Source of the DNA: Psococerastis gibbosa
Taxonomy: Eukaryota > Arthropoda > Insecta > Psocodea > Psocidae
Direction of reading: 5' to 3'
Assembly (NCBI GenBank): GCA_963971405.1
Contig: OZ020490.1
Span: 310,001 to 374,000 of the forward strand
Length of the DNA stretch: 64,000 bases
The notes under the pieces are model-generated. The model worked only from the letters and a program-made list of their open reading frames with translations. It searched no databases and had not been told where the DNA came from. Below are positions 17,390 to 55,532 of the stretch, in pieces (the stretch's first letter is position 1; every line of letters starts with the position of its first letter). The translations under genes were made by a program, and so were the position numbers.

Positions 17390-17671
17390 AACGAGTCGGT
17401 TCAGTACTGGATATCGAAAGGCGTCCCTAGGCGTAAACTCGTCATGAAGTTGCCTTCATCTGGAGTGGGCTTTACTCTCGCCAGCACCAATAATACGGGT
17501 CTCAAAGCTGAGGCAAATTTACAGTATGAACATGAATCGTACAGCCTTATCTGTAGAAATATTCAGAATGGATGGAACGTCGTGCGAGATCGAGAGGGAG
17601 CAATGAGTTCTTATATCTACAAAGACGATAAATGGGTCTCATTTAATGATATAGTCGACATCCAAAGGAAG
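17390..17671 (+). CDS. gene 1 exon 6: GH18 C-terminal part
   Basis: Acceptor AG at 17388-17389, donor GTGAGC at 17672, both phase 0. The 94 residues begin [19 protein letters not shown], typical of the GH18 segment where chitinases have a Y-W-x-x-x-G-x-P-x-x-K-L-x-x-G-L-P pattern, and end in WVSFNDIVDIQRK. The insertion loop is 10 residues shorter than in gene 2. The upstream ATG-to-acceptor reading is intronic. Confidence 0.85.
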
Positions 17672-23600: not shown

Positions 23601-25155
23601 TTCTCTGTCGGACTTCTTACTATACGGAGGTGAAAAGTTTGTTTAAAATGGATTTGGTGCTGTAAGTTGTCCAACTAAAAGCTGGATGCGTACATCCATG
23701 AGCACGGCTTTCCCCTGTTTTCTACACATGTTTTTAATGGGAGGCGCCATCTAGTATACACCGCCGCGCCGCCCCTTCGAAAACCTATCGTTAAGCCACT
23801 GGATGTAAAATAAGCCGCAAAGAAACGGAGGAACAGAAGTTAGTCAAACTAATTTAATTGATGCCGTTTCAGCTAGTTCACCGAGATCTCGCCGCCAGGA
23901 ACATCCTCGTTTACCATGAATTCACGGTAAAAGTCGCTGACTTTGGTCTGACACGAGAAGTCAACAGCTCGTATTACTACCGAAGAACTACGGAGGGTAA
24001 GATGCCCATTCGATGGATGGCTCCAGAAGCCTTGTTCGACCAGGTATCGACCTTCCAGTCGGACGTCTGGTCGTATGGGGTCGTTCTGTGGGAAATCTTT
24101 GCTCTGGGAGGGAATCCTTACCCCTCCGTCAGCAACCAGGAGCTGTATGACATGCTGAAAATCGGGCACCGTATGGAGAAGCCAGCGGGGTGTTCAGATG
24201 AGATGTACCAGATCATGCGGGACTGCTGGATGTATCGGCCTAAGGAAAGGCCGACTTTTGGAGAACTAGTGTTAAGGCTAGACAGTCTCTTGGCTCAAGC
24301 ATCACCTGCGGTAAGTTTGCGTCCCAACAGTATGTAATCCCAAAATAGAAAACTTATTTTGGTTTCCTTTTACGACTCACGCATAAGGTCATGTAGCCTG
24401 AGCAAATAAAACTGTTATACGGCTTTCTCTTGAGTAGGCTATATAAATCTTACTAGATATGTTGGGGAAGGAACCTTGGGAAAATTCGGGAAGTCTTCTT
24501 TATTAAAAACTAAAGGTTCTAATTAATAATCTGCTTCATCGTTTAGTGGTCACGGATCCAAGCTCATGCAATAGTTGGGGGACGATCGGAGACGTGTCGT
24601 AACTCAACACGGGTACTAACCTACAGAGACGACTGAATAGGTCATTCTGATAAATTCATTTAATTGTTTGAATGCGATTAACCTTTTTATAAGAAAAAAA
24701 AAACAATGCCCCATTCAGCCTACAAAGCTTTAATTTTTAAGTTCAAATTGTTTTGGTTTTTGACAGTCCGTGTGTTGGCTCAGACGCCACCAGCGCTGCT
24801 TGACGCCTCAATTTGACTTGTCAAGCCCCCAGGACATAGATTTAACTAGTTTGTGAGCCTTTAAAATATTTTTTGAGGGAAACCGTCAGTAACTGCCGCT
24901 TGCAAAGGCCCGAGACGACGTTGAATTCTACCCATCAAACAACTTGCCGTTCACTGGTGACGCGCAAATCTATTGGATCTGCCAAATTATGCATTACACC
25001 TCACACTAGATAATTTATTCGTTCATTTTCCTATTTTGGGGCATTGTCTGTACATTGTCAGGTATGATTTTCAGGAATACCTCGAGCTAGATGTCCCTCC
25101 ATTGAACATTGCAGCAGACGTGAACGGCGATATCGAGGCAAATGTTCGGATTTAA
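17390..25155 (+). CDS. GH18-FGFR-type receptor tyrosine kinase, gene 1 (exons 6-10 only)
   Basis: The spliced coding segments are 17390-17671, 18645-19224, 22073-22365, 23873-24310 and 25075-25155. They join in frame (1674 nt, 557 residues plus stop). They encode the C-terminal third of a GH18 chitinase-like domain, one transmembrane helix, a juxtamembrane region, a complete FGFR-like tyrosine kinase and a tail containing EYLEL. Kinase landmarks all present: GEGEFG loop, VAVK lysine, [11 protein letters not shown], tandem activation-loop tyrosines (SSYYYRR) and APE. Exons 1-5, which encode signal peptide and most of GH18 in the neighbouring paralogs, are not found upstream. A 9.7-kb retroelement composite lies directly 5' of exon 6. 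The 5' half is therefore lost or lies beyond the window start, and whether the gene is functional is open. Confidence 0.85.
18645..19224 (+). CDS. gene 1 exon 7: GH18 end, transmembrane helix, kinase N-lobe start
   Basis: Acceptor AG at 18643-18644 (phase 0), donor AAAG|GTGAGT at 19224/19225 (phase 1). It starts SEYIRMMDLGGAAAEM, the last GH18 strand, then CGGGRYPIL. A hydrophobic helix (YLILIICLGAIFGYSIY) is followed by basic residues (NRRYRRRG), giving an extracellular N-terminus. The juxtamembrane EYQLPVDPHWEISRDNIVLG resembles FGFRs, followed by GEGEFGRVV and VAVKMLK. The usual GH18 W and DDF near the last strand are altered (AEM, DDP). Confidence 0.9.
19560..19735 (+). mobile_element. 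non-LTR element 3' fragment
   Basis: Translates to FKAIALFNTLPTDIRDQSHL and FKSIVKRWVK, the standard C-terminus of Jockey/CR1-like RTs, followed by a stop. It lies in intron 7 of receptor gene 1. Confidence 0.6.
20166..20561 (-). pseudogene. Penelope GIY-YIG endonuclease fragment
   Basis: Reads GVYRLNRNDCNAIYISQTGR and SFKTRVREHITG, then FVKHL. This is the GIY-YIG-like core with the Penelope C-x-x-x-Y-I-G-x-T-x-R-x-F pattern (Y-I-S here). 20166-20357 is a low-value Pro-rich frame at the end. Confidence 0.7.
20562..21300 (-). pseudogene. Penelope reverse transcriptase fragment
   Basis: The longest frame is 20562-21041, beginning MEVEENNSLNFLDLTI and continuing to the RT thumb (SMIFRLLSIPMNE, LHLIYRILRHHKIK). 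Upstream on the same strand, in a different frame, are the GLPMGS and DD-motif regions. Not translatable as one protein. Confidence 0.8.
22073..22365 (+). CDS. gene 1 exon 8: kinase N-lobe to hinge and alpha-E
   Basis: Acceptor AG at 22071-22072; the split codon rebuilds a Glu (VAVKMLK-E-VHSDSD). It carries the alpha-C helix (VSEMEIMK), GEHINIINLVGCCTQ, hinge [17 protein letters not shown] and GMEYLVSKK. The exon ends AAAAAG and is followed by GCAAGT, so the in-frame donor is GC, not GT. Using the GT four bases later would break the frame of exon 9. Confidence 0.88.
22620..22695 (-). repeat. tRNA-derived SINE head
   Basis: On the minus strand the sequence has an A-box-like GCGGTTGAGACG and a B-box-like GGTTAGAATCCCGCC about 40 bases apart. 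It does not fold as a complete tRNA with an acceptor stem that I can see. In intron 8 of gene 1. Confidence 0.5.
22720..23420 (-). mobile_element. non-LTR RT C-terminal fragment
   Basis: The frame 22945-23388 gives IVGIITGGLKPTPLSKIYPI and AGITPPTIRR, a hallmark of the C-terminal region of Jockey-group RTs. No catalytic motifs remain. Sits in intron 8 of receptor gene 1; GC content is higher than its surroundings. Confidence 0.75.
23545..23585. repeat. AT dinucleotide microsatellite
   Basis: TATATA runs in intron 8 of gene 1. Confidence 0.7.
23873..24310 (+). CDS. gene 1 exon 9: kinase catalytic and C-lobe
   Basis: Acceptor AG at 23871-23872, donor GTAAGT at 24311, both phase 0. It encodes [13 protein letters not shown], the DFG loop, [46 protein letters not shown] and MRDCWMYRPKERPTF, all diagnostic of FGFR-group receptor kinases. 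All catalytic residues are present, so the kinase is predicted active. Confidence 0.93.
25075..25155 (+). CDS. gene 1 exon 10: C-terminal tail with EYLEL motif
   Basis: Acceptor at 25073-25074 (ATTTTCAG), phase 0; 26 residues then TAA. It opens with EYLELDVPPL, which matches the position and form of the FGFR tail motif EYLDL (the PLC-gamma docking tyrosine in vertebrate FGFR1, from memory). An alternative AG at 25061-25062 would give an immediate stop, so this acceptor is preferred. Confidence 0.75.
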   Translation, partial: EYLELDVPPLNIAADVNGDIEANVRI

Positions 25156-28600: not shown

Positions 28601-28661
28601 AAACTAATGCGGCTTGTAGTTTTCAGATGCATGTTGCATGGTAATGTGTGCTTTCATGCCT

Positions 28662-28892: not shown

Positions 28893-29109
28893 TCAAATCC
28901 TTGTCTTAACCTTAACCGTGGTGATTACATGACTTTCCGACTTTGCATTAAAGTTTGAGTCGTCAGTCAGTGTACACCACTGTGCCACTACTTAAAATAC
29001 AAACAACAGCGTCCGTCTAGCAGTTCGCCTACATCCAATCGTACATTAAGAGTGTTATATTAAAAGTATGATGTCACAAGTAGCGACCTAGTGCAAAAAG
29101 TTATGAGAT

Positions 29110-30835: not shown

Positions 30836-30941
30836 ATGATGGGTCACGTTTGGAACGTCATCACAAAATATAGTTGCTTTGTGGGTATACTTCTCGTCAA
30901 TATTTGCTTCGACACTTTCGCGCAAAGTTTCGAAACTTACG
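30836..30941 (+). CDS. gene 2 exon 1: start codon and signal peptide
   Basis: Two adjacent ATG codons (30836 and 30839) start a 35-residue exon. A basic and polar N-region is followed by a hydrophobic core ([12 protein letters not shown]) and a cleavage-like TFA-QS at 29/30. Donor GTGAGT at 30942, phase 1. The phase matches exon 2, and gene 3 has an equivalent exon. 5' UTR limits cannot be set from sequence. Confidence 0.75.
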
Positions 30942-33900
30942 GTGAGTTAATCAGGAGTTTAATTATACTACTTTATGATGATGTGGAGTTTCCTGAGCTT
31001 AATCGACCTTGAAATTGGTTGGAAGATGCCTTGTCGTGTTACTATAATGCTTGAGAATATATCGCCATAACGTCTTATTATAGTTTTATTTTTGCAGATG
31101 ACATCACAAGTACTTTTGTTAAGCATCATACGGGCTCGCAAGGTGCAATTCCACACTACTTAGTGGCTCCTCCAATAACGTCACCTAAATCAGGCAAGAT
31201 TATGTAAAGCCAACAACTTACTCAAACGTAAACCTTTTTGGAGCAACATTGTCGGGTCAATAAATTAATAATGGTACAGGGGATCCACCCCTCCTTCCCT
31301 TAAATGGCACAATTTAAAACGAAATGAACTAAACTGAGTTGTTGCAATACAAAATTTGTCAGGTGTTATAGATGTTCAGGCCTATACAATGAGCAATACC
31401 TATACGATTTGATTGGTAGAATTATTCAACGTCGTCTCGTTGATGTAGGTCTATTATTTATATTCATTCTTGCTGGTTGTTGACTAACAAAATCCATGGC
31501 CATGTTCATTTAGGGCGATTTTTAATTGGTTATAGTAACAAACCCGATTCATTTGTTTTCATAACTTGCCTTTATTTATTCTGTCTAACTTGATTTGGTG
31601 GGTAATATTTCACTTAGTTTTCGTTTAACTCTTGCCCCCCTCACTAGGACCTTTTTAGGAATATATTAGAATGGCATTTTAGGGAGTTTCATCTACCTAT
31701 TGAGACGGCGACCAATGTTCGACTATCACAACTTTTCATTTCATGACCCCATGAGTCTAATACAGCCTCCTGTTCAAAATGTTATGCGCATAGCGTACAT
31801 ACATATGTATGTATGAATGTATGTACCTACAGTACGGCATGTATGATTTTAGGAACCACTGTAACTTACGGTGATAGTATCCGATTTTGATGAAACTTGT
31901 CACATAAATTTATCATACAAATATATTGATCGAGTTCGTTAACCAGCGTTATCCGCTATTGGTTTCAAGATGACCGAAAACTTAAAAAATGCTTGTCTCA
32001 GTTAATATATTAGTTGTAGCGAGATGAGATAACATGTGACTGAAAGCCCGTAGTTTCATCTGCAGCAAATCATCGATTTGACTGACATGACTGTGTCTTA
32101 CCAGAAATTTTTAAACTATCATTAAGTGGTACCTCATCTATTTAATAATAGTGTCACTATCTTTTAAAATTGTCTTAGGTTACTTCAAGATTATATGTGA
32201 ATTACACTCCCCTCAGTGGTACTCGATATCTGAAGTCCTAAAGCCCATTAAGATGGACCTGTGTACCCACATCGTACACGGCCACACATTTATGGATTTC
32301 GGCACGCTACTCTTGGACAATCCACCACATTTCACTGATGCACTCAAGAGTAAGTAGGCTACATTCGATAGCTACGCCTATAATTTGCTGGCATTAGCAG
32401 AAGTTGGTGATGAAATGGACTAAAATCCGGAATATAGACTTGCCGGTCCATGACTGCGAGGCATGTTGCAGACCACTGCATCGCAATTACAACAGTGGTC
32501 ATAGGCAAGGGGATCCTTCCACATGAATGCAGCTAGCAGTAGGCACTTCGCCTCACTGATTCGATGATTACACATCTACATAATTTTTGGGATTAGTCCT
32601 TAAGGGGAGTGCTATGCAAAATTGGTAGTCCAATTAAAAGCTAAGGCAAACGCCAAAGAAAATCCCATTATCAGGTAGGCTACCTAATTATTTACTAGTA
32701 TATTTTATTTTATTTTAATAATAAATAAACCGGCCGCCATACCATGTTGAATCCAGCGGACCAGAGCAGGTTCAAAGCTGCAGATAACTTGGTCGTGTGG
32801 ACAGTGCCGGTAGGGAAACATGGTAGGACTTGTCCTGGTCACCTCCGAACTAATCGTGTGACTTCACTGTGTTTCCCAAGTGGTTCGGAATCCACTATAA
32901 TCAGGAGGTCCACTGTCCTATGGGCTGGCATAGGACAGTCAAGTCGGGGTCGCTCTATGGGCCCAAATGAGGCCTAAGTCGTTATTAACCCGACGAACAC
33001 TACTACTACTACTAATAATAAATACATAAATAATAATGACTTTTTGTTCTATTACTAAGCAAACCTAGCGGAGTTAGGGTTTTAAAGCCCTCTCTTACAT
33101 TCAACTAGAGAGGCCCTGGACCGCCTGCTATACACGCCCTCCGAAGCATGGCCAAAATCAGTGTGGGACTCGAACCAACAACCTTTCGGGTGAAAGTCAG
33201 AGTCCGTACCGCTACTCAACATGTCCTGACTCCATATTATATACAGTACTTGAAAAATCTACGTGCAATAGGTGTAGTCTAATTGAAAAGCCACGCCTGA
33301 GTGACTTTTTTAATCAAAAAATATCAGTGAAGAATCCTTAAAAAATGAATTTCAGGGCGTCTTAGACTGGGAGTGGAGACACTGAAGAAAACAGGAACAA
33401 AACCTATCTTGATGCTGGTGTTCTGGGATTCCGACGTTGGCAGACTGGTTTCGGACCCAGATGACATGGCGGCTTTTAGCGAACATGTTGTAGGATATCT
33501 CATTAAAGAAGGATTTGATGGGATGCAATTGAATTTGGGATTCATGGTGTGCTTAAAGTTTTGTTAAGTTCCTAACTATTGTATGCACAAAATATTATAG
33601 CAAGCTACTGATATGATGATTCTAGCCGGCTCGGTGAAAATTGTACAGTATAGTACGGTACCGGTAGTCAATTTTTCAGTAGCCCCCGTTTCCCTTTTAT
33701 TTTTACCATTCTCAGTTGTCTCTACTATAGTTTATTGCAGTTATTGCTTTCTTATGTATACGTTAGTAAAAGGAGAGCTTTTTTATTGTCAAAATTCCAA
33801 CGGACTTTTGTTTGACTTTTGACACGTTTTGAGGTCCCAAAAAAAGTTTTTACGACACATGATCAACCACTTTCGAGATGGTACCCAGTCAAATTGAAAA

Positions 33901-36900
33901 TAATAATATGTGATGAATAAATAAGGACGTTTTTGTTCTATTACTAAGCCAACCTAGTGGAGTACATTCTCATTTCAATGTCTTAATCAAGTTAGTTAAC
34001 CAGTGTGACCATTTTGTTTCTCAGTTAACATTTCTCTAGATAAGTAATGGAATAAAATGTGTCTGAAATGCATTACTTTTTTCTGCGATATTTGGTAGGC
34101 TAATATAGTTTTTACGCCAAATCAACGATTTCAAGATGGCGGCCGATCATTTAGTGAAAATCATGTGATATTTCCATGAAGTTCATAGCCGTCATAGCGT
34201 CATAGCGTTTTAAAAGAGGGAAAGCAGTGTCGGCACTTGTGCCAAATGCCAAAATGTTCTCTAGTGTAGCCTACTAGCCTACATTAGTGCAATATGATAA
34301 GTGATGGAGGAACCATCGCTCCACGTTGCAGAGTTGCGTATGCATGAAATCTCCCAATGCCTGATCGACCAGATTCAAACTAAGGAATTTTTAAAAAATC
34401 ATTGGTGCCTATTTTTGAAAGACATGTTTTGTCGCATTTTTTTTTTTGTATTCACCAAAATTTAATCAACATTGGAAAAATTATTTCCTAGGCAATAACT
34501 TTTGTTTTTACAATTTCAAGCGTACTCCACTGAACACTGATAATATGGAGATGGACCATTTCGTCCTTTGGGTCAAAGAACTGCGCACAGCCTTCCGACC
34601 ACACGGGTTGTTACTCTCAGTTGCAAGTTCACCTTACATTGAAGTCATACCTATTCTTGCAGAGCACGTCGAATGGATAACCCTCACTACAAACATTTTG
34701 CAATGGGAACGGCGAAATCGAACTTATTACGTGTCTCCCTTATTTTACAGGGAGCAAAATCCCGACCACCTGCCTAATTACTTTGTGAACGTGGTAACTA
34801 ATACTGAAAGTTTTTTAGGTACATACGTATCATATATTGACACATTCAAAGGTTTAAAAAACCCCGGAAAAATAATTAACTAAACGTGAAATTGTAAGGA
34901 CATTTTCCATCGGTTTTGACCGATGAATGTTTTGGGTTTTCGAAAGTATTACCCCTTTATTAGACCCACCCATCACACGAAGAGGCGACCGCAGCAGGCG
35001 CCAAAGATCCAGAAGCTAGTCTAACAGGCCAACAGGGAGATATTTTTTCAATATATATTCAATTAAAATGCCCAATGGGTCGGGCCCGAGAGATGTATCT
35101 CATCTTTTTGCAAAATGTACTTTGAATTGTTGCGCATGCACATACGAGTAGCTCGTAGCTCCAACATATCACAAGGAAGTGTAGTTATTGGCGATGGCTA
35201 TTTATTTGAATCATAAGCCCTGATTGCGCAGTTCATAATGTTATTTCATTCCATTGAAAATTTGTTTATTAAGAATATTCGATTTGAATTTTGATATTGC
35301 ACTGCACTTTCCAATCAATTTTCAAATCGCTATTGGGTCGAATATTGGAACAATATTTAGAGTGTTAAGGCTGAGTGTTCAAAATGTTTTGTAAACAAGA
35401 AATTTTACTGATTTTTGAACAAAATAATTTATTGCTCATTCCACAGACACAAAGATAACAAAGTGAACAGATAAATAACTCATAAAAAAATCCAAGTTAT
35501 CGCAGGAAGTTTATATTTTCTGAACTGAAATATTATTACCTTAAAAAAATTTGATAAATAGCCTTAAACCCATTTTGTAGCACAGTTGTAAATCTGTAAG
35601 GGAAATAGACAACTTTCACAGAAAGCTAGTATTTTTTAAGATTTTTTCATCTGTTCCCTTTTATATCTTTGTGGCTGTGGAACGAGCAATTAATTAATTT
35701 CGTCCAAAAAGTACGATAATTTCTTGTTTACAAAACATTTTGAAGACTCAGCCTTAATCATGAGGATAGTTTTAAAAAATGTATTTTGCGCGTGTAGAGT
35801 GAAATTAATTTTTGTCTTCAATGCATCGTATTGATTTGTTTTAAAATATTAGTACACATAATAAATGTGATTCTTTTTATTCGAACTAGCTCACTACACC
35901 TGACACCTGTATACACTAAGTTATTGTAGGCTAATTTTGTCATTCTAGAGATAGTGAATGAGTGAGGGAGGGAGAGAGAGAGCCCCATCTCAGTAGTAGG
36001 CTAATAGAACAATGGCTATTTTTTACATTACAGAACGATTCAATCCATTACTGGATATCGAAGGGAGTCCCTCGCCGTAAACTCGTCATGACGCTGCCTT
36101 CTGAAGGAAGGACTTTTACTCTCGCCAGCACCAATGATACAAGTCTCAACGCACAAGAAATTGGAGATGGCGAACTGGGCGAGTTCAATAATGAACCGAC
36201 ATATATCGCCTACTTCGAAATCTGTTATCGCATTCGGTACCAGAAATGGGTCGTTGTACAAGATCATGAGGAGACAGTGGGTTCTTATATGTACAAGGGG
36301 AATCAATGGGTGTCCTTTGATGATATAACGGTGATTCAAAATAAGGTGAACCATAAACTATAATATTATGAATAGTGGGGTCTAAGTGATTTACAGTTTA
36401 GAAATTTGTTGAAAACTAAATTTTGAAAAATAAGCGTGATGACAGAATATGACATGAGTTAACTTACAATATTTATAAGCCATATGGAGCTCCAAATAAT
36501 GTTGTGAGGTACCTACACTTGCATTATCAGTCTCCAGTTTAACTTTCCAAGTCTTTGCCCATAAAATTGTCATCATTCACTGTTATGTACGTATCTAGAA
36601 CAGTGAAATTGTTTTAAGTGCCAAAATTTTCTATTTCGAGATTTTGTGTTACCCAAGTTGAGGCCTCCTGAGTTTCTGAGACATGTGAGTTCTCAAGAAA
36701 TTTGCTGCCCCCCCCCCCCCCCCCATCTATAAACAAATCCTGGCTATACCTCTTTAACTAAGCAGTAAATATTATTAGCACCAGCAGATTACCAGTACAA
36801 CAAGACTAGGACTATCCTCTTGAAACTATGCCAAAAATAGATTACCATGTTGACGCAAAAAATGATAGGTACCGTACGACTTTATGAATGAAAGCCACAA

Positions 36901-39900
36901 AGGCGAATGGCCAGAATGATGCCTGTCCGGTCCAGTCTAAATCACAACAATTGGTCCTTCTGTGGTAAATTTAGGTCCACTGCAGATCTTGTTCCATGTC
37001 CATTTGTGATCGCCAGCATTTCTCATTAAGTGATACTGCTGCAGCTGTGGCACGAACATAGTACTATAGAACCCATTTCACGTTCAGCGGGTTTTATTGG
37101 GCACAACACAAGCCCGCTGAATTAAAAAGATACTCTTTTTCTGCATTTCAGTCAGAATACATACGTTTCATGAATTTGGGAGGAGCTGAGGTTGACATGA
37201 CCCACGATGACTTTAAAGACGTATGCGGAGGCGGCTACTATCCTATACTGTCCACGACCAGACAAATACTGGGACCTGCAGTGAATGATACCGCAGCGGA
37301 GAAGGTGCCACTGCAGGAGATAGTTTCTAGACCAAATAATGCCATGATTAATATAGGCATCAACTTCGCATACTTCATATTGACAATCTGCCTCATTGCT
37401 ATTTTCGGATACAGTGCTTATCGAATTAATCGACGGTATCGTTGGAAACGCAATGATGATCAGATTATGATGGAAAAGAAAATTGTTTTCGTTGCGAAAA
37501 AGCTTGTTCAAGGTGAAGAGAATTCAATTGAGTTGCCATTTGTGACGCTGGAGAAAAAGGTGGAATTATGCAGACGACGTGAAGAATCTCCTAGGCCGGT
37601 ACCAGAGTATCAGCTTCAAATTGATCACTTTTGGGAGATTTCCCGAGACTGCATTATTATGGGTGAGCTTCTGGGAGAAGGCGGATTTGGCCGAGTAGTA
37701 CGGGCCGAAGTTTTAGATGACTCACAAAGAGGCAGCACATCTGTTGCCGTTAAGATGTTGAAAGGTGAGGGAGGTTAAATTCTTCTTTTTTTTATTCATT
37801 AACTGATGATATACTTACAATCAAAATTTCCAGATACTTGGCTGGTAATAATAACAAACATGATAAGGAAAACGCTGTTGATTTGCTTTTGTCTCCACGT
37901 AATTAAAAGAAAATTTAATAACTGGGCGCCATGTTAAATTTTCTGGTAGATTGTTATGTACTTGTTCTTAATCATGCAAATGCTCATAAACTAATTTTGT
38001 GATTTTTTCGAAATTGATAAACGGCACCGGAAGCCAAACCGTGAGTGATAGATGAATGCACAAAACACTTTTAATGCCAATATTGCGCATGCTCAATGCA
38101 TAGGGGAGTTTGAAGCTGAAAGCAGCAGGGGCTTAAAATAAATGAATAAATAAATAAAATTACACATATTTATGTTAAATTATGCAATACAAGTAATCAA
38201 CAATTAATTGACAAGAAAGTATAAATTATAAAGTCGTCAACTTAGGGACTGTAGCCTACGGCAACAGTTCGAAAATAGCCATTTGGCTGATTGTTCTTAA
38301 GGAACTTGGTTGATTGATAGTAAATGATTACACTGAGAGAAATGCTACACATAAGATATCGGAGTTTATCCGATAAATACGTGACAACGTAGTTGGTACT
38401 ATAAGTTAACGGATCGGTTCTCCGATAAATCCTCTACGTTAACTCATCGTCTTCCATAACTCCGATACTTATGTGCTCCGATAATTCACTAACATATCGT
38501 TTTCTATTTAACGTTGGCCTAGATTTTGCTCCGATAACCCATCGTTCTCTAGTTATCGTTGACCTATAAATTCTCCGATAATCCATCGTTAAGCTCTGCT
38601 TCTACCTACGATACCCTATCGTAGCTGCATCCTCGTGGGGGGGGGGGGGGGGGACAGCGGCAGCGCTGGCAGTATATATATATATAGGGAGGATCTGGTA
38701 CATATATATATATGCACTCTGTATTAATGCACGCAGAGCCCCCTGAATATGTATATCCAAACGCCGCCCTTCATCGCCTCCTCCCCTCTCTCCTCCCGAT
38801 AGATGCAGCACGTTGCAACACTGGGCGCTATCTATGCACGTCCTTTCATCCTGCAGCCACCTGAAAGGAATAATTCAACAATATAATGCAATGTATAACT
38901 GTATATAAGATTAAAATGGTGTAGCCCATAAACAGTATATTGGGCAATGGGGAACATAATAGCCTAGATACAATCGCTTTTGAACAACCAAATTAAGACA
39001 ATTTTCTAGTCCAGCTTTTTGGCTTAAGCTAAGAAAGAATTCCACGGGAAATATTCACTACAGGCTATGGCTATAAAAGCATTATAGACACTAGATGAAA
39101 TATTTCTCTTTATTTTAATGCGGATGCATTATAATTATGTGACCAATCAATCGTATATCAAAATGCAGAGAAATAATTCTTCTACTGCCTTAAATATAAG
39201 ACTTGAGACACTAGGCATATGAAATAATGATGCGCATCCAAACAGCCCCAACTATTACGTGAGGGAGCTCTAAGGAAAGGAATGAAGGACTGAAGGTTCA
39301 AGGTAGGCAGGTACGTCCGTTAATGCAAGATGCGCGGGACGTTGACGCAGGGGTAAATCCCGAACTGCGCATGTGCAGACCTTCAACTACGATAACTTGC
39401 TGCGATAATTTAAATGGGGGTTGACCACTCCGATAACATTTTTTTAGTCTCCGATATCTTACCTAGGTCTTACGATAACTTTTCAAAAGTTAATTGTGAT
39501 GGACAGGCGTAAAGCAACTACGATTAGTTTTTGATTTTTAGACTAGAGTACAAGGACTACAATTCAAGGACATTTTGGTATACGCGATAACTTAACGTCG
39601 CATCTGTTAGAATAATCTGGTTAACTTGCTTATTGCACGAAAAGTTAGAGTCCTTTTTTTAGCTATTTTATTTATTTTCAACTAAAATTCATGATTTCGA
39701 GTTGCTAAATTTGTGGATTGGCATTCAGCATAGGGGTATGGTGAAATTATTGAATTTTCCTCTCCCCTAACGTTAGTATTTCATGTGTTCAATAACCAAA
39801 TTTTCTTTTGGACTTCATTTTTAGAATAAGCACATAGGTATTTAGTAGTAAAAGTCTACTTATTTTTTTTTAACTATAATATTTACGACGCTGTTCAATT

Positions 39901-42900
39901 TTTTAACTCTCCGAGCAACATGCAATCCGCGTGAGCCCAGTATCAGCACTGGGCACTGGGTATCCAGCGGCTCCGACTATCGCACGGACCCGATGGGTCA
40001 CCCCCTGCCATCATAAGCCGCATAGCCCGCATCCGCAGCATCACGCAATGCGTATACATTATTATTATATGCATCCTATAGATCAAGTCATAGCCCATAT
40101 ATACACAATATAACATATTATATTTTCTTAAATGAAATTTATCCTCCATTCAGCATGACTACCAGACAAAACACTTTATCAGGGAGAACCCATTATAATC
40201 GAAAATATTCAAATCAATTTATTAGTTATGCAACCGTTTGACACAGGTAATCAATTAACCTAAAGAAATCCAGCAAATTTGAGTATACTTGTACAAAATG
40301 AAACCTCCTTCCCCACTTCGTTTACTTTTAAATACAATTTCATGACAACTTTTAACGAATAGCAAAAATTAGGTTTGAATTTCTTTGGACGCTAACAGAA
40401 GCATCCGTCCATACCGCACATATACAAATATGTATTTGCATTTTATTTTTCAAAGTCATAACATAATTATAACCCCCCCCCCCCCCAGGGGAATTGGTTA
40501 ATTTTTCCCTACAATAGCAAAGCAAAGTAGTTTTCTATGTAATATATAATTTTTTACTTTCGTTCCATATTTACGAATATAGATGTCGTATTAAAGCAAT
40601 ATGATTTTAAATTTTAGCGCGAAAAACACACGCTACGTGTAACTTATCGGACCATATCCAGTGAATCCGATAAGTATTCGTCTCAGCTAGGTCATCATAT
40701 CATATCATATCGTATCGTACATTTTTTAGGCGTTGGATTATCGATGTGCCAGAGCTCCTTTAAAGTATTGTCGACTAAGCAACGATATCTTATCGAGGCA
40801 TTACAAGTTCGATAAGATATCGGAGTAACAGCTCAACGAAAACGCAACGGAGATTTTGGGTTATCGGAGAAGTGGTCCGATATCTTATGTGTAGTAATCT
40901 ACGATAAGTTTTCGAAATTTCGTTATCGGACTGAAAAATGGGTGTCCGATACTTGAATACAGCCCAATATTTCTCTCAGTGTAGTTCATGTGTAACCAAA
41001 AATTGTTACCTTAGAAATAAGCTGTTTACGCGGATTACAGAGCAATGCAATATAGAAATTTCAAAACTGAAAAATTACTGACAATCAATCAGACAAATGT
41101 TTAAAATATCCAGCATTTATTGAAAATTTGCCCCCCTTAAGTTTTAATCCCAGATGGGCTATTTATACAGTGGTGAAAAATGTCTAGGTATAGGCCTATA
41201 TAAGTTTGGCGAGTTGTCTATTAAATCGCAAATAGATCGGCACTTCGGAGAGGATGTTGGCTATTGTGACTATGGGTTTTAGGATTTAAAAGTTGTTCTG
41301 TGACGGCTAAGGAAGTGCTGGAGGAAAGAGAGGTGGGTTACGCGAATGCCTTTAAGCGTATTGCCCTTAGAATGTATTAGACGATAATACATATGATAGT
41401 TCTATAGTGGCATCAAAGGGTCACGCTGGAATTCTCCTTCTCTTTTTATTTTGTTTTACCATCTTTAGCTGAGATTTGCATGACTATGGACACTCTTCAA
41501 CCACCTGAGACAACTGCCAATATCCATTAGATTACCAAGTATTTGCCTGTTCTAACAAGTTTCGGCCCATGTCTATTATAAATTGACACTGTAGTTACGA
41601 CCACTGTTCACAGCCATTTGTGGTGCGCAGTAATCTGAATGTGGTTTGAGAAGTTGCCACAATTAGAGTTCCAACAAGAAGTACTGTATGCTTTTAGGGA
41701 GTTGTCATATTTATCAAACAGTCACAGGTTCAAAGATCTTATAATAAACTTGGTTTACCTTACTCCATGGTGCTACAGCCTGGTTAGGACATTGACCTGT
41801 TTTACATCAGCGTTAGGCAAGGAACTGATGATGCATCGATACATCTGACATGTTACAATGCAACGCTACAGATGCTAATGCCAGCTTTTTCAGTTTTAAA
41901 TTTTGTAAAGTTTGATGCTGATAGGCATAGACATTGTGTTTTCAGAGACTCATAGTGACAGCGATATGGTGGATTTCGTAAGCGAAATGGAAATAATGAA
42001 AATTATTGGCGAGCATATCAACTTAATCAATTTGATTGGCTGCTGCACCCAAGACGGACCTCTTTTGGTGGTGGTCGAGTTCGCCCCTCATGGCAATTTG
42101 AGAGATTTCTTAAGAGGATGTCGACGAACTTCCCAAAAGATCCACCGAGAAGAAGGCGACCATGTCTCCGATGAAAGGGTTCTAGTTTCCATCGCATTTC
42201 AAATTGCAAGTGGAATGGAGTATCTGTCGTCAAAAAAGGCAAGTAGGCCTGAAACTGGAGCAGGTCTAAAGTAGAGTAGTAATGTAGAAACTTTCGGAAC
42301 TACGATGTATATAAAAATGCAGTTCATTTGCAAGGCATTTTCATTTTGTAAACTGGAGTGACAGTCAATACTGGTCAAATCGCTAAGCGGAGCATATAGT
42401 GTCGGCCATAATAAAAATTTTATTTTAATTTTATTTTTTTATTTTTTATTTTAGTATGTATTGGCCATTTTTAAAATACAGTGGTATTCTCAGCGTCGTT
42501 ATAGATAAAATAACTCTATTACGATTTATTACGTTATTATACGTTTGGATTGACCATATCCTTCGCTTTTACAATCTACCATTATCAATGATTCTAGGTG
42601 CTTTCCTCAAACTGTCTGCTGCTTATGATCGTGTTAACATGCAATTTTTGCTTGACAAACTGTATACCTACTGCATTGGTATATAAGGACTCCCGCATAA
42701 TCTACTCCAATCTTATCGTCTCCAATTTATTGTAGCCTGTAAACTTATGGCAGCCTAACTAAAGAGAATAAAACTGCTCAGTTGGAGGACAGATATTAAC
42801 CAACACCCTACGCTTGTGGTCTAAACTCTATTTTTATTTCGGAATCAGCTGCAACAATAGACGGTATCCCTCAGGACTCTGTTTTAAGCCCAATTTTGTA

Positions 42901-45345
42901 CCGAATTTATGGCAATAATATTGATTGTTTTCTTGTTGTTTGTTTGCGACGCCTGCTTTCTGCTTTTTTGCTCTTAAGCAACCCTGTTAGCCTAGAGGGA
43001 GGGGGGGGGGGGCAGTGAGTCTGTTTGTTAACTTGAGGCAACCTAAGAGCACACTCTTTCACCTCCGGAGAAAGGGGACTTGACTGTCAGGGCCATGGAT
43101 ATCCTGATTTTTAGTGGATTCCGAACCACTTTGGGAACATAGTGAAATGACACGATTAAATCGGAGGTGACCAGGACTCAGACCGCACTTAGACTGACTG
43201 GTATAGTCCTTATGTCCCATCATGTGTCCAGAATGTGTTCAACATAATTTTACAATTATTTAACTTCTTCCATTTCCCGATCACTGAAATCGTCTTCATT
43301 GGCTCCAGTTTCAGTTATCCCGTCTCCAGACATATCTTCTTACATATTAAAAGAAATGTTTATTGAATTCTGATGACATCACCATAATATATGTATCAGC
43401 TTCCACCATAAGTCAGATTATGCTGTTAGACAGTCTACGGCCACCTTAACCAATGTTGAACACCTGTTCCCTATGCATAAGGTTTACTACTCAACGATGG
43501 AAAACCACCACCGAAACAGCTGACCATAAATTTGATTTATTATTGTGGAATTCGTGCAGTTCTTTGTAATTTTATCCTAAATTGTAATGGGTCACTTCCT
43601 CACTTCCACGAAGTCACTGCAGGGACAGAATTAGGTTATTAGATGTCTTCTTAAACTTTCGATAGCTACAATTTGCAGAGATTGTTTTAGGCAACTCTGA
43701 ATTACGGTACACTTTCCCCTCATTACACGCATACCAATCACGTCATTTAGCTAAACGAAAAGTAACTGTGGGTGACTGTGTCTCATCTAATAAAATACAC
43801 CTTAACACTGTTACCAGACAAGGGGTTATCTCCTCTGAACTGGCCCACAAGATGAAAGTAGAGCTAGTCAGCTAGCCCCCACTAACAACAGTTGAAAATT
43901 GTTTACAATGGCCTATGTATACAATTACAGAGAATTATAATATTAGTGTCAATTATTGCAGCTAGTTCATCGTGATCTCGCCGCTAGGAACATCCTCGTT
44001 GGCCATGAAGTCACAGTAAAGATCGCTGACTTTGGTCTGACACGAGAAGTCAACAGTTTGTACTACTACCGAAAAACCACGGAGGGTAAGCTTCCCATCC
44101 GGTGGATGGCTCCAGAAGCCTTGTTTGACCAGATATCGACCTTCCAGTCGGACGTCTGGTCGTACGGGGTTGTTCTGTGGGAGATTTTCACTCTGGGAGA
44201 AACGCCTTACCCTTCCATCAGCCACCAGGATCTGTACAACATGCTGAAGAGCGGGCACCGTATGGAGAAGCCAGCGGGGTGTTCAGATGATGTGTACCAG
44301 ATCATGCGAGACTGCTGGATGTATAAGTCTAAGGAAAGGCCGACTTTTGGAGAACTAGTTGTAAAGCTAGACAGTCTGATGGCTCAAGCGATAAGTAGGG
44401 TAAGTTTTAAATTGAGCGATTATTGAAGAAATATTTTGGTTCATTTCATGTAACCTACAAACCTTTTTTTTTATGAATTTTGACAGCAGTAAAAGTCAGG
44501 TCTTGCAGACAAAGACACATTTCATGTGGGGGGCTGGACACTTGTTTCAATGCCTCATCCAACAGTATGCCATAAGGAAATAGCATTTACAAGTCATATT
44601 GCTGATTCATAAAGAATAAAACGTTTAACCGCCTCAGATCATAAATTTCAGGAGATTAAAATGGTTTTTTGGCTCAAAATTTAGTTGAAGGGCTCAATTA
44701 CAGCGTTTATACTTCAAATTACTCACTGAACGTGTAATACTGGCATTACACTGACTTAGGTAAGAGAAGCGACCTCCTCGTTATAACTTAAGCTACAGGA
44801 CCTATAATCATCTGTTTTGCCGTATGCCGGGCATCGTCTTAGCCACAAGACCACATGCCCGCCAGTGCAGGGTTGGCTAAATCTTCTATTTTATAGAATG
44901 CTCTTTGACAAAATTCGCATTGTTGGACAGGTTAAAACATCAGCTGGAGGATTTAGCGAAATTTGTGGTCTAGCGTTTAAGACGATTCCTTGGGAAGGCA
45001 TAAATCCAGAGTCTAAATCCCGCCAAGTCCAGTTGTTTCTATACCTAGATAGATCCTCCAAATTTCGGTTACGTGATTTACGGTATCGAAATCATGATTC
45101 CTATCGGCTGTAATAACCCACAAAACTTTAGTTTTCAAAGTCAGCTTCCGATTTCTTTGTGGTTTCATCGTAGGCCTACACTCGCTCTGCTTTATCACCG
45201 TCATTTGACTTATCAATTAGTAGCCAAGCCAATTGTGATTATGAAGACCTAGGGACTATAGTCTATGTTCATGGTGACATGTAATTTTCAGGACGTCTTT
45301 TCTATGAACACTGAAGAAGACACTAGCAGCGATATTCGGAAGTAA
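30836..45345 (+). CDS. GH18-FGFR-type receptor tyrosine kinase, gene 2 (complete, 10 exons)
   Basis: Exons: 30836-30941, 31098-31193, 32179-32349, 33356-33546, 34521-34793, 36034-36345, 37152-37764, 41946-42238, 43962-44399, 45292-45345. They sum to 2547 nt, an exact multiple of three, with every splice phase consistent, giving 848 residues. Predicted layout: signal peptide 1-29, linker to about 67, GH18 barrel about 68-420, transmembrane helix about 452-473, kinase about 544-831, tail 832-848. The GH18 catalytic motif is degenerate (D179-G-M-Q-L-N-L-G186, glycine in place of the catalytic Glu). The kinase is intact: G-loop 558-563, K584, alpha-C E601, D690, DFG 708-710, activation-loop Y719-Y721, APE 735-737. 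Inferred role: plasma-membrane receptor that binds through a dead chitinase fold and signals as an FGFR-like kinase. The exact end of exon 5 is the weakest boundary. Confidence 0.88.
31098..31193 (+). CDS. gene 2 exon 2: short linker before GH18
   Basis: Acceptor TTTGCAG ending at 31097, phase 1. It encodes DDITSTFV... and a conserved [11 protein letters not shown] stretch shared almost identically with gene 3. The phase needed by exon 3 puts the exon end at TCAG (31193), followed by GCAAGA, so this is a second GC-type donor. The GT in GTAAAG a few bases later gives the wrong phase. Confidence 0.7.
32179..32349 (+). CDS. gene 2 exon 3: GH18 first strands
   Basis: Acceptor GTCTTAG ending at 32178; donor GTAAGT at 32350, phase 1. 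It encodes [16 protein letters not shown] and [11 protein letters not shown]. These correspond to GH18 beta-1 (K-V-x-C-Y-x-x-x-W) and beta-2 (L-C-T-H-I-x-Y-x-F). The paired cysteines (IC, LC) that form the first disulfide of animal chitinases are kept. Confidence 0.85.
32720..33015 (+). repeat. dispersed repeat ending in ACT/AAT microsatellite
   Basis: About 250 bp, moderately GC-rich, ending in an ACT-repeat and AATAATAAATA. Part of it (AGTGGTTCGGAATCCACT, GGTCACCTCCGA) recurs in reverse at 43060-43220. Its 77-residue open frame is not a gene. In intron 3 of gene 2. Confidence 0.6.
33038..33231 (-). repeat. tRNA-derived SINE, near full-length
   Basis: Minus strand: A-box-like TAGCGGTACGGAC region and B box GGTTCGAGTCCCAC (33163-33176), then the body GGGCGTG..AGCAGGCGGTCC and a tail with CTAGGTTTGCTTAG and AAAAAGTC. 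Same family as 62154-62357 and fragments at 53754-53862 and 33915-33965. In intron 3 of gene 2. Confidence 0.8.
33356..33546 (+). CDS. gene 2 exon 4: GH18 beta-3/beta-4 with lost catalytic motif
   Basis: Acceptor ATTTCAG ending at 33355; donor GTGTGC at 33547, phase 0. It contains the beta-3 region ([10 protein letters not shown]) and the beta-4 segment [13 protein letters not shown]. In active GH18 enzymes this reads F-D-G-x-D-x-D-W-E; here both inner Asp are Q and N and the acid/base Glu is Gly. This predicts no chitin hydrolysis. Confidence 0.88.
33915..33965 (-). repeat. SINE tail fragment
   Basis: Shares TTGTTCTATTACTAAGCC and AACCTAGTGGAGT with the SINE 3' part. In intron 4 of gene 2. 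Confidence 0.6.
34521..34793 (+). CDS. gene 2 exon 5: GH18 middle
   Basis: The acceptor TTTCAAG ends at 34520 and aligns with the acceptor of gene 3 exon 5. It encodes [21 protein letters not shown], matching the GH18 N-F-x-x-L-L-x-E-L-R-x-A-F helix and the following strand, then [12 protein letters not shown] where active enzymes carry M-x-Y-D. The donor is placed at GTAACT (34794); a GTGAAC six codons earlier is an alternative in the same phase. Confidence 0.75.
35369..35753. mobile_element. TTAA-flanked MITE
   Basis: 385 bp with about 35-bp inverted ends (GGCTGAGTGTTCAAAATG at left; CATTTTGAAGACTCAGCC at right) and TTAA on both sides (35365-35368, 35754-35757). The TTAA target is the piggyBac signature. 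No ORF. In intron 5 of gene 2. Confidence 0.75.
36034..36345 (+). CDS. gene 2 exon 6: GH18 C-terminal part
   Basis: Acceptor ACATTACAG ending at 36033; donor GTGAAC at 36346, both phase 0. It encodes [32 protein letters not shown], an insertion domain, and [15 protein letters not shown] followed by IQNK, all standard GH18 C-half signatures. The 104 residues contain potential N-glycosylation sites (NDS, NDT). Confidence 0.88.
36367..37140. other. intron 6 of gene 2
   Basis: No exon or element recognised; contains a C run at 36709-36724. Confidence 0.5.
37152..37764 (+). CDS. gene 2 exon 7: GH18 end, transmembrane helix, kinase start
   Basis: Acceptor CATTTCAG ending at 37151; donor AAAG|GTGAGG, phase 1. 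Residues 384-587: last GH18 strand (LGGAEVD, then [13 protein letters not shown]), a stalk about 20 residues longer than in gene 1, the helix [20 protein letters not shown], basic stop-transfer (RRYRWKR), juxtamembrane, [21 protein letters not shown] and VAVKMLK. One exon spans ectodomain, membrane helix and kinase lobe, so the fusion is physically encoded in one exon and not a prediction artefact. Confidence 0.93.
38331..40981. mobile_element. foldback-type DNA element, copy A (2651 bp)
   Basis: Terminal inverted repeat CACTGAGAGAAAT / ATTTCTCTCAGTG with TA on both sides (38329-38330, 40982-40983). Subterminal regions are packed with alternating CTCCGATAA and TTATCGGAG words. Includes G and C runs and AT microsatellites. 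No transposase ORF. Homologous over most of its length to copy B at 49346-51189. In intron 7 of gene 2. Confidence 0.88.
41946..42238 (+). CDS. gene 2 exon 8: kinase N-lobe to alpha-E
   Basis: Acceptor TTTTCAG ending at 41945; phase 1 entry, phase 0 exit; 293 nt, identical in length to gene 1 exon 8. Motifs: [44 protein letters not shown] and GMEYLSSKK. The donor is AAG|GCAAGT at 42239, the same GC donor as in gene 1. Confidence 0.9.
42540..42940 (+). mobile_element. degenerate non-LTR RT fragment
   Basis: Reads [20 protein letters not shown] (motif A of RT) then, after stops, [20 protein letters not shown] (motif B). No YADD. In intron 8 of gene 2. Confidence 0.7.
43962..44399 (+). CDS. gene 2 exon 9: kinase catalytic and C-lobe
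   Basis: Acceptor TTGCAG ending at 43961; donor GTAAGT at 44400; 438 nt, identical in length to gene 1 exon 9. Contains [58 protein letters not shown] and ERPTF. Predicted active, and closest in pattern to FGF receptors. Confidence 0.93.
45292..45345 (+). CDS. gene 2 exon 10: short acidic tail and stop
   Basis: Acceptor AATTTTCAG ending at 45291, phase 0, 17 residues (starting [10 protein letters not shown]) then TAA. Unlike gene 1 the tail has no tyrosine. The position is supported by the correct phase and by the total length being divisible by three, but the exon is short and unconserved, so a different last exon is possible. Confidence 0.55.
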   Translation, partial: DVFSMNTEEDTSSDIRK

Positions 45346-51363: not shown

Positions 51364-51496
51364 ATGGAAAGGCTTGGATACATGACGTCACGCCTGGGTC
51401 ACGCCTGGGCCGCGCCCTCGCAATGCTGTATGGCTGGTCTACTTCTTATCAGCATTTGCTACTCCGACACTTCGACGCTAAGTTACAAAAATGGCG
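51364..51496 (+). CDS. gene 3 exon 1: signal peptide
   Basis: An ATG at 51364 opens a 44-residue exon ending in a GTGAGT donor (phase 1). A second in-frame ATG at 51430 begins MAGLLLISICYS, a better signal peptide, and may be the true start. It lies 175 bp downstream of a foldback element that could have displaced the promoter. Confidence 0.65.
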
Positions 51497-54400
51497 GTGA
51501 GTTAATTGGGAGATGTTTAGGCAAGCTGCAGCTAAATACTGAAGCTGGGGAAACGAAGGCGTGGTGTTGAGGTTGTAAGGCCCGATTCTATAATATATTG
51601 TGATATTGTTAGTTTCGTGTACCCAATCGCAGGTATTCTTCATTATGTCCTTTTGATTAGGTAGGAGGGAGGGGCCGTAAAGACCCGCACTCACCTTATA
51701 CTTAACACAAATTATGGACGCTGGTGACAAGCCAAATTGAGATGACTGTTTCGACTGCACCCCATACCATGATCAAAAGGAAATGAGATTATTTCATTTT
51801 TACTTATAAAAATCCCTTTCGGCTCTGACCGATCAGGAGTAGGGAGATTCCGCAGACCCTGCTTTTCCTCTACGCTACCTAAATAATTAGATTACTCGTG
51901 ACTTCGTGGTATTTCATTTTAGTAAACAAACAATAACAAAAACTTAGTGTTTTAGAAAAACTTTGTCTAAGAAACCCACTTGTGTTAGTATAAAACCCTG
52001 AGCGCTTTCGGCAAGAGAGGTTTCCTCTCCCTAGTCACATTTGCATCTTCTCCTCGAGTTGAGCAAGTCTCAAATTGCAGATAAAGTGTAACTGTGCTAG
52101 TGGGTTTCCCTCTGTAGATGGCAGTTCTTGCCGAAAGCGCTCAGGGTTTTATACTAACACAAGTGGGTTTCTTAGACAAAGTTAATTTCTTAACGATTAT
52201 TTGGGTTTTACTAATTCGGGTTGTTATAACAAGTTTTTCTAAAACTCTAAGTTTTTGTAATTTTTTGTTTACGCTACCCACGCTATGTGTGTAATAAAAT
52301 TAAAAAAAAATACTTCATTATTTTCCAGACCACAACATCAACACACAAAACACTTCTGTGTTCCAAATTTCGAACCACAATGCCGACTATGAACTTTATT
52401 TATCAAATTATTTTCACTTTGACTGGATGCCATCTTAAAATGGTTGATTTGTCGTAAAAAGTGGTAATTACCATTATCGTAGATAATAAAACGGACTTTC
52501 AGTCAGAAATTTAATTCATTCCTATGCGACCAATATTAACTGAGATATGATTTATTCTAATTTATATATTCTATTCTATTCTATTAATACAAGGTTTCAA
52601 TCGGCTGCCATCTTATTGTAACTAAATGATAATGACGAAATTATGTTTTCGACACTTGATTTTTTTTTGCTTTTCTATTTTTCTATTTGAACCTCTCGCT
52701 CAAAATGTGTCATTTAGGAAATATGATGGAGATATCAATGAATTGCCCATGTTGTAATTAGGGTACGGAAATGTATGGGCATGACAAGGCACATGGAGAA
52801 GGTTAATGAAACTTGTGCAAGCATTTTAGTATTAATTTCTGGAAATATAGGCCTAATAAACTAACAGCCAATAGCCTTAATTGATACCATACGATTTGAC
52901 GATTTTACTTTATACCTGTACCTACTTTTTTGTCGATTAGGTACTTGTTCCGAGATTTCAATGGATTTACACGTTTTGAGGTCCCAGGAACCCAAAACAG
53001 TGTTTTTTACGAAATGTCGGTCTACGGCTCTGTCTGCCTGTTTATCGATTTTCATGAAATGTGGCATGTAGCTTTACAAAAATCATACCTGGAGATCTTT
53101 ATTTTATTTCGGGGTAACTTAATTTTGGGGGGATTATTCTGAAAAACTCAAAAAAAAAACGCTAAAAAAATTATTTCTCAAAAACGGCTCCAACGATTTC
53201 TTTTAAATTCACATATATTGTAACTGTTATTATTGTTAACGGAATACGGTTGGTCGTCTTCCGTCTCCTACAAAAAAAGCTCCATGCACTATCCCTATAT
53301 GTTATTCAAAAATAATCCCTTAACCTTGCATCAACGTTTCGCTGTAGACCTAGTGCACCCTCTATGAGTTGCCCTGACTTCATCCATAGCTTTACACCTT
53401 TATCATAATATAAAATCCCCTCCCCTCTTATACACTGTATGTATAATTATATATATTATGTAAGCCTTGAGCCATACGGCCACTAATTTGAACAAGTCGC
53501 GGTGCCCCTCCCCGCCTATCAGAGAGACGACGAATCATCGTCTGTAAAAATCAAAATATCTTGATTGCTTTAAAAATGATGTACTGTGCGCCAATAAGGA
53601 TATAGCCTTCATTACAATAATACATGACATAATCTTGGCACAACAACTTATAGTTAATTTATTTTGCAGATGATGACATCACAACTACAACGGTGTCGCA
53701 AGGTGCAATTCCACACTACCTAGTGGCTCCTCCAGTAACATCACCTAAACCAGGCATGTAAAGCAGGCGGTCCCGGGCCTTCCTAGTTGAGTGTAAGAGA
53801 GGGCTTATTAGCCCTAACTTCGCTAGGTTGGCTTAGTAATAGAAACAATAAAAAGTCCTTACTTAAAATTACATATTATGTATGTGCACGGTACGAGACT
53901 ACATGTGTCAACGAACCTGTATATTCTATCCCCTTTATTAATATAGTTATAATAATTGTAATTTTATAATAGTTATGTACATGTAAATACATGTTAATTA
54001 AGATAGGCATAAGTTAAGTTTAAGTTAGTATTTGCATATTATTGGACTCCGTCTGTTTGCAATTAAATGCTTATTTATTTGAAGAACCAGTAGGCTAGAA
54101 TTCGGGCTGATGGGCCGTGGTCGAATTGAAAGTGAACTTCCAAACGTTTCGTCAACATTTGCGGTCGACATCTTCAGTGGCGCTGCGTAGACTTTGAAGG
54201 TTGTACCTCGGTGGCTCAATTCAACCACGGCCCATCAGCCCGGATTCTACTGGTTCTTCATTTGACTCCGGCCGTGAAAGCCTTTGCAGTTACATCGTTT
54301 ATTTATTTATTTTTAAATTTAGTACATCTACCTGTATTCATTCCGTTGAGCAGACAGACAGAGCGACAGACAGACATTTCGTAGGTTTGGTTCGTGGAAC

Positions 54401-55532
54401 GTGTAAATCTGTTGAAATCTCGGAATCGAAAATTTTGACCATCACAAAGCTTTCCTTGTACTAGGCCACATGGGACCCTCGCCCTTAATTGCTGCAGTTT
54501 TCTATTATAAACCTGTTATTCGTTGCAAGGCTATGATCACTTTGAAGGCAATTACAATAATTCACGCTTCATCATCTGACGAACTGTTCGTTATTTTAGA
54601 CTACTTCAAGATAATCTGTGAATTCAAACGTTGGAATGGTTACCCGACCAATCACCCAATGAGCGTCCAAGAAGTCATTGATATGGAGTTGTGTTCACAC
54701 ATTATTTACGATTCCGTAAGTTTGGATAGCGACACGCTGCTCATATCATCAGGTCAAGACTTCGAAATAGACACAATGAAAAGTAAGTAAGTATACGCAC
54801 GATGCTTTTTAACCTGCTTGCTACCAGAGAACCAGCAACTGCTTCGTAAGGAACACTGCGTCTCCATCCACGATCCCCCATATTGTGTAACGCATTATTA
54901 TACTGTACGTAAGTACAATACAAAGGGAGATTAGTTCGCACACCTCAAATAATTACAATTCATGGTTTAAAGTAATCAGTCGACAGAGGACATGATAAAG
55001 TATTAAACATTTCGTGGCAATCATGGCCGTGCCCAGTGGGTGGTCCATGGGGTGCGGACCCCTCCCCCCCGAAATAAATTTTTGCATGTAAACCTGTATA
55101 GTTTGAAGAATTTATCCTTTAATTCATTAATAAATTACGCAAAAAATTCTTGGACCCCCGAAATCAAAACCTGGGCACGGCCTTGGTGGCAAGGTATGAC
55201 TCTGGAACACTGCAGCGCCCCGAAGTGCCTGGGGGTAACTCTTGACCGTTCACTCATATGCAAGAATCACTGTCTAGCCACCAAGAAAAAGGTATGCGCG
55301 AGAAATAATATCATCCTCAAATTAACTGGGAGCACATGGGGAACGCGGCCGCCGATACTACGAACCTACTGTTTGGTTGGGTCGATGCATATCAGCTGCC
55401 GAATACGCAGCACCGGCCTGGGACGCGTCTGCACACACCAAAGATGTCGATGTTGCTGTAAATGAGGGTGCACAAATCATCTCAAACTGTGAAAACGCGC
55501 AAAACCATGTACATTATTTGGGGTTTATTTAT

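Follow-up and report, generated by a model that had tools for sequence, protein, structure and literature searches.

Receptors that join a GH18 chitinase-like domain to a kinase are known from plants. The named case is tobacco CHRK1, and 91 plant sequences are reported (PMC5485988). CHRK1 is said to be without chitinase activity for want of a Glu (PMC10573068), whereas predicted enzymatic activity is mentioned instead in PMC5485988. GH18 chitinases carry the motifs KxxxxxGGW, FDGxDLDWEYP with the proton-donor Glu, MxYDxxG and GxxxWxxDxDD, and the GH18 domains N1–N3 of OfChtII, in which Glu is replaced, are presumed inactive (PMC5827449). The present locus lies in a 64,000-nucleotide stretch of the insect Psococerastis gibbosa (assembly GCA_963971405.1, contig OZ020490.1, positions 310,001 to 374,000, forward strand), called the window and numbered from its first letter. 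Its central gene, gene 2, encodes a predicted receptor with a GH18 domain followed by an FGFR-type kinase. Probably it belongs to a receptor kinase family in which the Ig ectodomain of an FGFR was replaced by a Cht10-like GH18 domain, with subsequent tandem duplication, so that a non-catalytic barrel binds another ligand and an FGFR-type kinase signals.

A GH18 domain and an FGFR-type kinase in one gene model

The gene 2 model is real, as predicted from genomic DNA. Ten plus-strand exons (30836-45345) join in frame to 2547 nt including the stop, or 848 residues, with compatible phases and zero internal stops, which reproduces the claim of a first-pass annotation of this DNA. Of the nine introns, 2 and 8 are GC-AG and the other seven GT-AG. 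The encoded order is signal peptide, GH18 domain, single membrane helix, FGFR-type juxtamembrane region and tyrosine kinase, with the following exons.

30836..30941, plus strand: exon 1, encoding residues 1-35 as signal peptide, with ATG and a hydrophobic core; donor gtgagt, its phase equal to that of exon 1 in gene 3
31098..31193, plus strand: exon 2, N-terminal extension; GC donor, very similar counterpart in gene 3
32179..32349, plus strand: exon 3, start of the GH18 barrel, from alignment to group II chitinases
33356..33546, plus strand: exon 4, GH18 with degenerate catalytic motif
34521..34793, plus strand: exon 5, GH18
36034..36345, plus strand: exon 6, GH18, with the insertion-domain region inside it
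37152..37764, plus strand: exon 7, last GH18 strand, linker, membrane helix, juxtamembrane region, kinase glycine loop and VAVK lysine
41946..42238, plus strand: exon 8, kinase; GC donor, also in gene 1
43962..44399, plus strand: exon 9, kinase with activation loop and APE
45292..45345, plus strand: exon 10, short tail and stop

Alternative ends of exons 4 and 5 and a GT site 10 bases beyond the GC donor of exon 2, judged by eye, were dropped: the reported joins are in frame, match the chitinase alignment and recur in gene 3.

Both domains proposed earlier are called by Pfam in the spliced protein: Glyco_hydro_18 at residues 84-395 (E 4.4e-32), inside the expected span of 68-420, and PK_Tyr_Ser-Thr at 553-821 (E 2.7e-94). 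CBM14 is not among the Pfam matches of the protein. The highest hydropathy window covers residues 451-469, inside exon 7, and five NxS/T sites precede this peak. Together, the domains and the helix support the single-pass layout of a receptor joining GH18 to an FGFR-type kinase. When the GH18 segment was shuffled 20 times, the maximum score was 31.2 bits, against 247 bits for the real one. A 238-codon open frame is expected about 0.0007 times per 64 kb at the base composition of the window, and Rfam gave zero matches across it.

The two halves meet within exon 7, an intronless stretch. Residues 1-41 of this exon align to the ends of GH18 domains of Cht10 (best E 8e-8), and its later part to the juxtamembrane regions and kinase starts of FGFRs (best E 3e-17), the E-values being computed against the small set of proteins retrieved in this analysis only. 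Given exon 7 alone, Pfam finds just the kinase start, at 19.2 bits and under the 23.1 cut-off, and does not call GH18. The same junction exon is present in two tandem genes, 1 and 2. That an assembly or gene-prediction artefact linked a chitinase to an FGFR is hardly conceivable for a model predicted from genomic DNA: the junction falls within a single uninterrupted open exon, of which a diverged version lies 18 kb away. As far as the DNA goes, only a contig that is chimeric alike at two places would leave room for the artefact. On both counts the annotation was right, namely that this exon by itself spans the GH18–kinase join and that the fusion does not result from joining neighbours.

By its sequence, the kinase half can be classed as FGFR-type. 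The search with the kinase region scored 7971 candidates, of which 7458 matched (protein searches here cover only proteins of 0.55-1.75 times the query length). Among the best 120 of these 7458, 119 are 51-57% identical to the query kinase and P0057 is 36% identical; most have Ig domains, the named ones are mostly arthropod FGFRs, and GH18 is listed for none. The nearest solved structures (best 60 of 259) are all FGFR1-3. Kinase motifs are intact, including the YYY loop and APE, and the juxtamembrane region aligns with those of insect FGFRs. In a tree of 35 rows (31 FGFRs from the 120 listed matches, two Culex kinase domains, and genes 1 and 2), genes 1 and 2 are paired (support 100/100, stem 2.29) among FGFRs without a resolved neighbour. 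The extracellular Ig domains by which a whole receptor is assigned to the FGFRs are not seen: Pfam matches of the gene 2 protein include GH18 and no Ig domain. As a side observation, P0056 of Culex pipiens (801 residues) has two consecutive FGFR-like kinase domains and is possibly a mispredicted tandem.

The GH18 half resembles most closely an arthropod group II (Cht10-like) chitinase, as judged from sequence. A group II chitinase is its best solved structure in the PDB (E 3e-61, residues 69-427), and chitinases are the best GH18 matches of the whole-protein search, with up to ~40% identity to the Cht10 type. That search scored 4688 candidates and found 54 proteins; 34 list GH18 and 20 list kinase domains, while none of the 54 lists both. 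In a tree of 48 rows (48 domains cut, P0036 left out beforehand), gene 2 is grouped with arthropod chitinase domains, those of Halyomorpha, Temnothorax and Anopheles among them, in a set of 15 rows (support 83/91), a placement that is unsure because its branch length is 3.17. Cysteines 74, 96, 343 and 408 are kept and aligned to chitinase cysteines.

None of the four motifs of active GH18 chitinases is intact in gene 2. The first is altered, part of it being VF, the MxYDxxG position reads TTNILQW, and the Trp of GxxxWxxDxDD is absent from genes 1 and 2. When gene 2 is mapped on OfChtII-C1, the catalytic Asp1729, Asp1731 and Glu1733 correspond to Gln, Asn and Gly, and Trp1621, Trp1663, Tyr1803 and Trp1809 to Pro, Phe, Asn and Arg. 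Under the OfChtII numbering, Asp1811 and Trp1961 of PMC5827449 fell on other residues; they were set aside and the motif was used.

Tandem copies and the constraint between them

When the 64-kb window was searched with its protein, gene 2 proved to be one of at least three tandem plus-strand copies. To the earlier account, borne out as to architecture, this adds the tandem set. Gene 1 (17390-25155) has counterparts of exons 6 to 9, and a probable one of exon 10. Gene 3 (from 51382, through 61761) has those of exons 1-5 and continues beyond the window end.

17390..17671, plus strand: gene 1 exon 6, GH18 (Pfam GH18 2e-10), phase as in gene 2
18645..19224, plus strand: gene 1 exon 7, the fused exon with GH18 end, helix, juxtamembrane region and kinase start
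22073..22365, plus strand: gene 1 exon 8, kinase
23873..24310, plus strand: gene 1 exon 9, kinase (Pfam PK_Tyr_Ser-Thr 9e-57)
25075..25155, plus strand: gene 1, probable exon 10, with acceptor, phase and stop; tail EYLELDVPPLN..., aligned to the EYLDL tail of FGFRs
51382..51496, plus strand: gene 3 exon 1, signal peptide
53670..53753, plus strand: gene 3 exon 2, GC donor
54600..54782, plus strand: gene 3 exon 3, GH18; no Pfam match alone
59888..60063, plus strand: gene 3 exon 4, GH18 with degenerate motif YDGLQLGLELL
61519..61761, plus strand: gene 3 exon 5, GH18; no Pfam match alone; last exon before the window end

The joins of gene 2 recur with equal phases in its paralogues, introns 1-4 in gene 3 and introns 6-8 in gene 1; the joins of the paralogues were chosen by reference to gene 2. 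For intron 5, gene 3 has the donor and gene 1 the acceptor; for intron 9, gene 1 has the donor and its proposed exon 10 the acceptor. GC-AG introns occupy matching positions, namely intron 2 in genes 2 and 3 (31193/31194, 53753/53754) and intron 8 in genes 1 and 2 (22365/22366, 42238/42239). Plus-strand DNA matches of gene 1 to gene 2 at E<=1e-3 are confined to exons 6-9 with at most ~40 adjoining bases, the match in exon 6 covering its first 126 bases and a few upstream. Genes 2 and 3 match as DNA in portions of exons 1 and 2 and some bases beside them, and in repeats elsewhere.

Constraint was estimated from replacement (dN) and silent (dS) changes per site, obtained as Nei-Gojobori counts, with one-sided Fisher tests that take sites as independent. 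For genes 1 and 2 the values are dN 0.126, dS 0.312 and dN/dS 0.40 in the kinase (p 3e-6), dN 0.234, dS 0.584 and dN/dS 0.40 in the transmembrane and juxtamembrane part (p 6e-4), and dN 0.318, dS 0.591 and dN/dS 0.54 in the C-terminal part of GH18 (p 0.004). For exons 1-5 of genes 3 and 2 they are dN 0.425, dS 0.666 and dN/dS 0.64 (p 0.003). In each of the four segments compared, dN is below dS. The kinase is the best-conserved part (79% between genes 1 and 2) and exons 1-5 the least conserved (45% identity between genes 2 and 3 over 258 aligned codons).

These figures bear on the idea that the copies form a decaying, functionless tandem family, still open through recent origin. Fast divergence of the ectodomain, the upstream exons of gene 1 not found in the window and several retroelement frames close by speak for decay. 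It is nevertheless very unlikely: the exons read in the three copies are free of stops and frame shifts, dS is 0.31-0.67 and exceeds dN (one-sided p <=0.004), and the catalytic motifs of the kinase are intact.

The copies may also differ in signalling. An EYLDL-type tail motif docks PLC-gamma in vertebrate FGFR1. The gene 1 tail EYLELDVPPLN aligns with EYLDL in 6/7 FGFRs compared, and the gene 2 tail is without it, so that the two copies may differ in downstream docking.

Another feature concerns exon 2, in which a peptide with [IV]TSPK is near-identical in genes 2 and 3 (31098-31193, 53670-53753; 4/57 bases differ), next to GH18 sequence that is far more diverged between the two genes. Six short words of this peptide occur in none of the proteins retrieved here. 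It may be a binding or processing segment, or a product of gene conversion.

Retroelement frames lie at 1036-2760, 8351-10217, 14993-15580 and 59143-59547, with Pfam reverse transcriptase in four frames and an endonuclease match at 9474-10217. Ten putative mobile-element frames were run through Pfam, five with a match and five without; the frame at 11560-12414, without a Pfam match, is Copia-like by eye. A repeat is shared by 40365-40983, in intron 7 of gene 2, and 50500-51191, a short way before gene 3; its two pieces are 82% and 96% alike, and as the comparison started at 50500, it may reach further. At 28623-28932, a long simple-repeat stretch leaves several frames open on both strands and is not considered a gene.

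A probably non-catalytic barrel and its possible ligands

The broken active site is not confined to gene 2. In gene 3 the first three GH18 motifs are broken (a gap, YDGLQLGLELL and RTHYTES) and the fourth lies beyond the readable part; in gene 1 the fourth is broken (GAAAEMLPDD) and the other three are not readable.

The kinase and the topology point to a signalling receptor, for which we infer expression, surface location, dimerisation, ligand class and downstream route. A single GH18 domain from a group II (Cht10-like) chitinase would have taken the place of the Ig ectodomain of an arthropod FGFR, and the fused receptor gene would then have been duplicated in tandem. Having lost catalysis and the canonical chitin groove, the barrel would serve as a folded binding surface, most likely for a protein. 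Ligand-driven dimerisation would lead to autophosphorylation of the FGFR-type kinase, with an output through the usual FGFR/Ras-MAPK route. As the barrel is without its groove, chitin bound in the customary manner is an improbable ligand, and our best guess is a protein, as proposed for IDGF2.

The annotation had suggested a glycan or chitinase-like ligand. Use of the chitinase groove by a glycan receptor is unlikely, since the canonical motifs are broken in gene 2 (all four) and in the readable parts of genes 1 and 3; glycan binding by the GH18 half may persist, since two groove aromatics are kept. A more specific proposal is a chitin or glycan sensor, in which the GH18 domain acts as a chitolectin for chitin fragments from moulting fluid or fungal walls and the kinase signals. 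The GH18 fold, the retained equivalents of Trp1691 and Tyr1624, and some mammalian chitolectins that reportedly bind carbohydrate although they lack the catalytic Glu (PMC1945033) are in keeping with such a sensor. It is distinctly unlikely in view of the broken catalytic motif, the altered first motif and the TTNILQW sequence of gene 2, the Trp missing from GxxxWxxDxDD in genes 1 and 2, and a list of Pfam matches that does not include CBM14.

A chitinase-like protein is a possible ligand. The receptor might then be the partner of IDGF-type chitinase-like growth factors or of other GH18 proteins, in barrel-to-barrel contact. The fold is common to the receptor barrel and the IDGFs, and IDGF2 is proposed to have shifted from carbohydrate to protein binding (PMC1945033). 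Even so, we hold this particular partnership to be unlikely.

Several points weigh against the proposed family of ectodomain-swapped, tandemly duplicated receptors. The OfChtII Trp1691 and Tyr1624 equivalents are groove aromatics that gene 2 has kept. The kinase tree covers FGFR-like receptor tyrosine kinases only, and the GH18 and kinase halves both sit on long branches, so that the trees give a Cht10-like and an FGFR affinity and no taxonomic order. For exons 3-5 of genes 2 and 3, similarity is visible as protein only, with no DNA match. A search of the 17.4 kb upstream for exons 1-5 of gene 1, with gene 2, nine chitinases and four pieces of gene 3 as queries, gave none, so gene 1 may be broken or interrupted by retroelements; as the kinase half of gene 3 lies past the window, only gene 2 is complete. 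Finally, the rapid divergence of the ectodomain also fits weak constraint.

Comparison with known receptors and chitinase-like proteins

In its kinase half, gene 2 shares with arthropod FGFRs of the heartless/breathless type the juxtamembrane region, the kinase and the activation-loop tyrosines, to which gene 1 adds the EYLEL tail. It differs by a GH18 in place of an Ig ectodomain, 11 absent juxtamembrane columns and an altered tail in gene 2. With Cht10/ChtII it has in common the GH18 barrel (up to ~40% identity) and C74, C96, C343 and C408. The chitinases differ in that gene 2 has one GH18 domain, no CBM14 match, four broken active-site motifs and an attached kinase. IDGFs likewise combine a GH18 fold without the catalytic Glu with a use in signalling (PMC1945033), but are soluble and not receptors, whereas gene 2 continues, within one exon, into the helix and the start of the kinase.

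Other animals provide partial parallels. Venus kinase receptors are an invertebrate family of receptor tyrosine kinases that joins the ligand-binding domain of other receptors to a known kinase (PMC2680970). They carry a Venus flytrap domain and an insulin-receptor-like kinase, and may be taken as an animal precedent for a new family that arises by domain joining. The KIN-16 family of Caenorhabditis elegans (OLD-1, FLOR-1) is a species-specific family of receptor tyrosine kinases, in which several receptors adjoin chitinase-like GH18 genes; the accounts consulted mention no fusion of the two. No animal receptor tyrosine kinase with GH18 appeared among the papers listed from the open-access literature or among the protein matches listed, which is not proof of absence.

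The annotation knew of no described receptor with this architecture. This stands for animals, with no GH18–kinase protein among the matches listed, and fails for plants, in which CHRK1 exists, although without an FGFR-type kinase. As plants have such receptors, the architecture is convergent rather than unprecedented. CHRK1, located in the membrane, combines a GH18 ectodomain reportedly without the catalytic Glu, one helix and a kinase, all of which are found in gene 2. Its kinase is of the plant receptor-like class, whereas the nearest kinases of gene 2 are FGFRs. Its GH18 domain is described as related to tobacco class V and bacterial chitinases, and that of gene 2 is nearest to arthropod group II. 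The two would have originated independently.

Collectively, the locus suggests an animal receptor kinase in which a new class of outer domain replaces the Ig domains of an FGFR, parallel to plants. If it is expressed, one could test directly what is recognized by a dead chitinase barrel once wired to a kinase, a question that extends to IDGFs and chitolectins, and the receptor could offer arthropods a route for monitoring cuticle or pathogens. It is tempting to propose, though tentatively and with less than even confidence, that these are the first animal GH18-headed receptor tyrosine kinases: FGFRs whose ectodomain was swapped, in an arthropod lineage, for a pseudo-chitinase and which were amplified in tandem into a fast-diverging recognition set (for cuticle state, pathogens or chitinase-like proteins), convergent with plant CHRK1 and with the chil-linked KIN-16 receptors found in worms.

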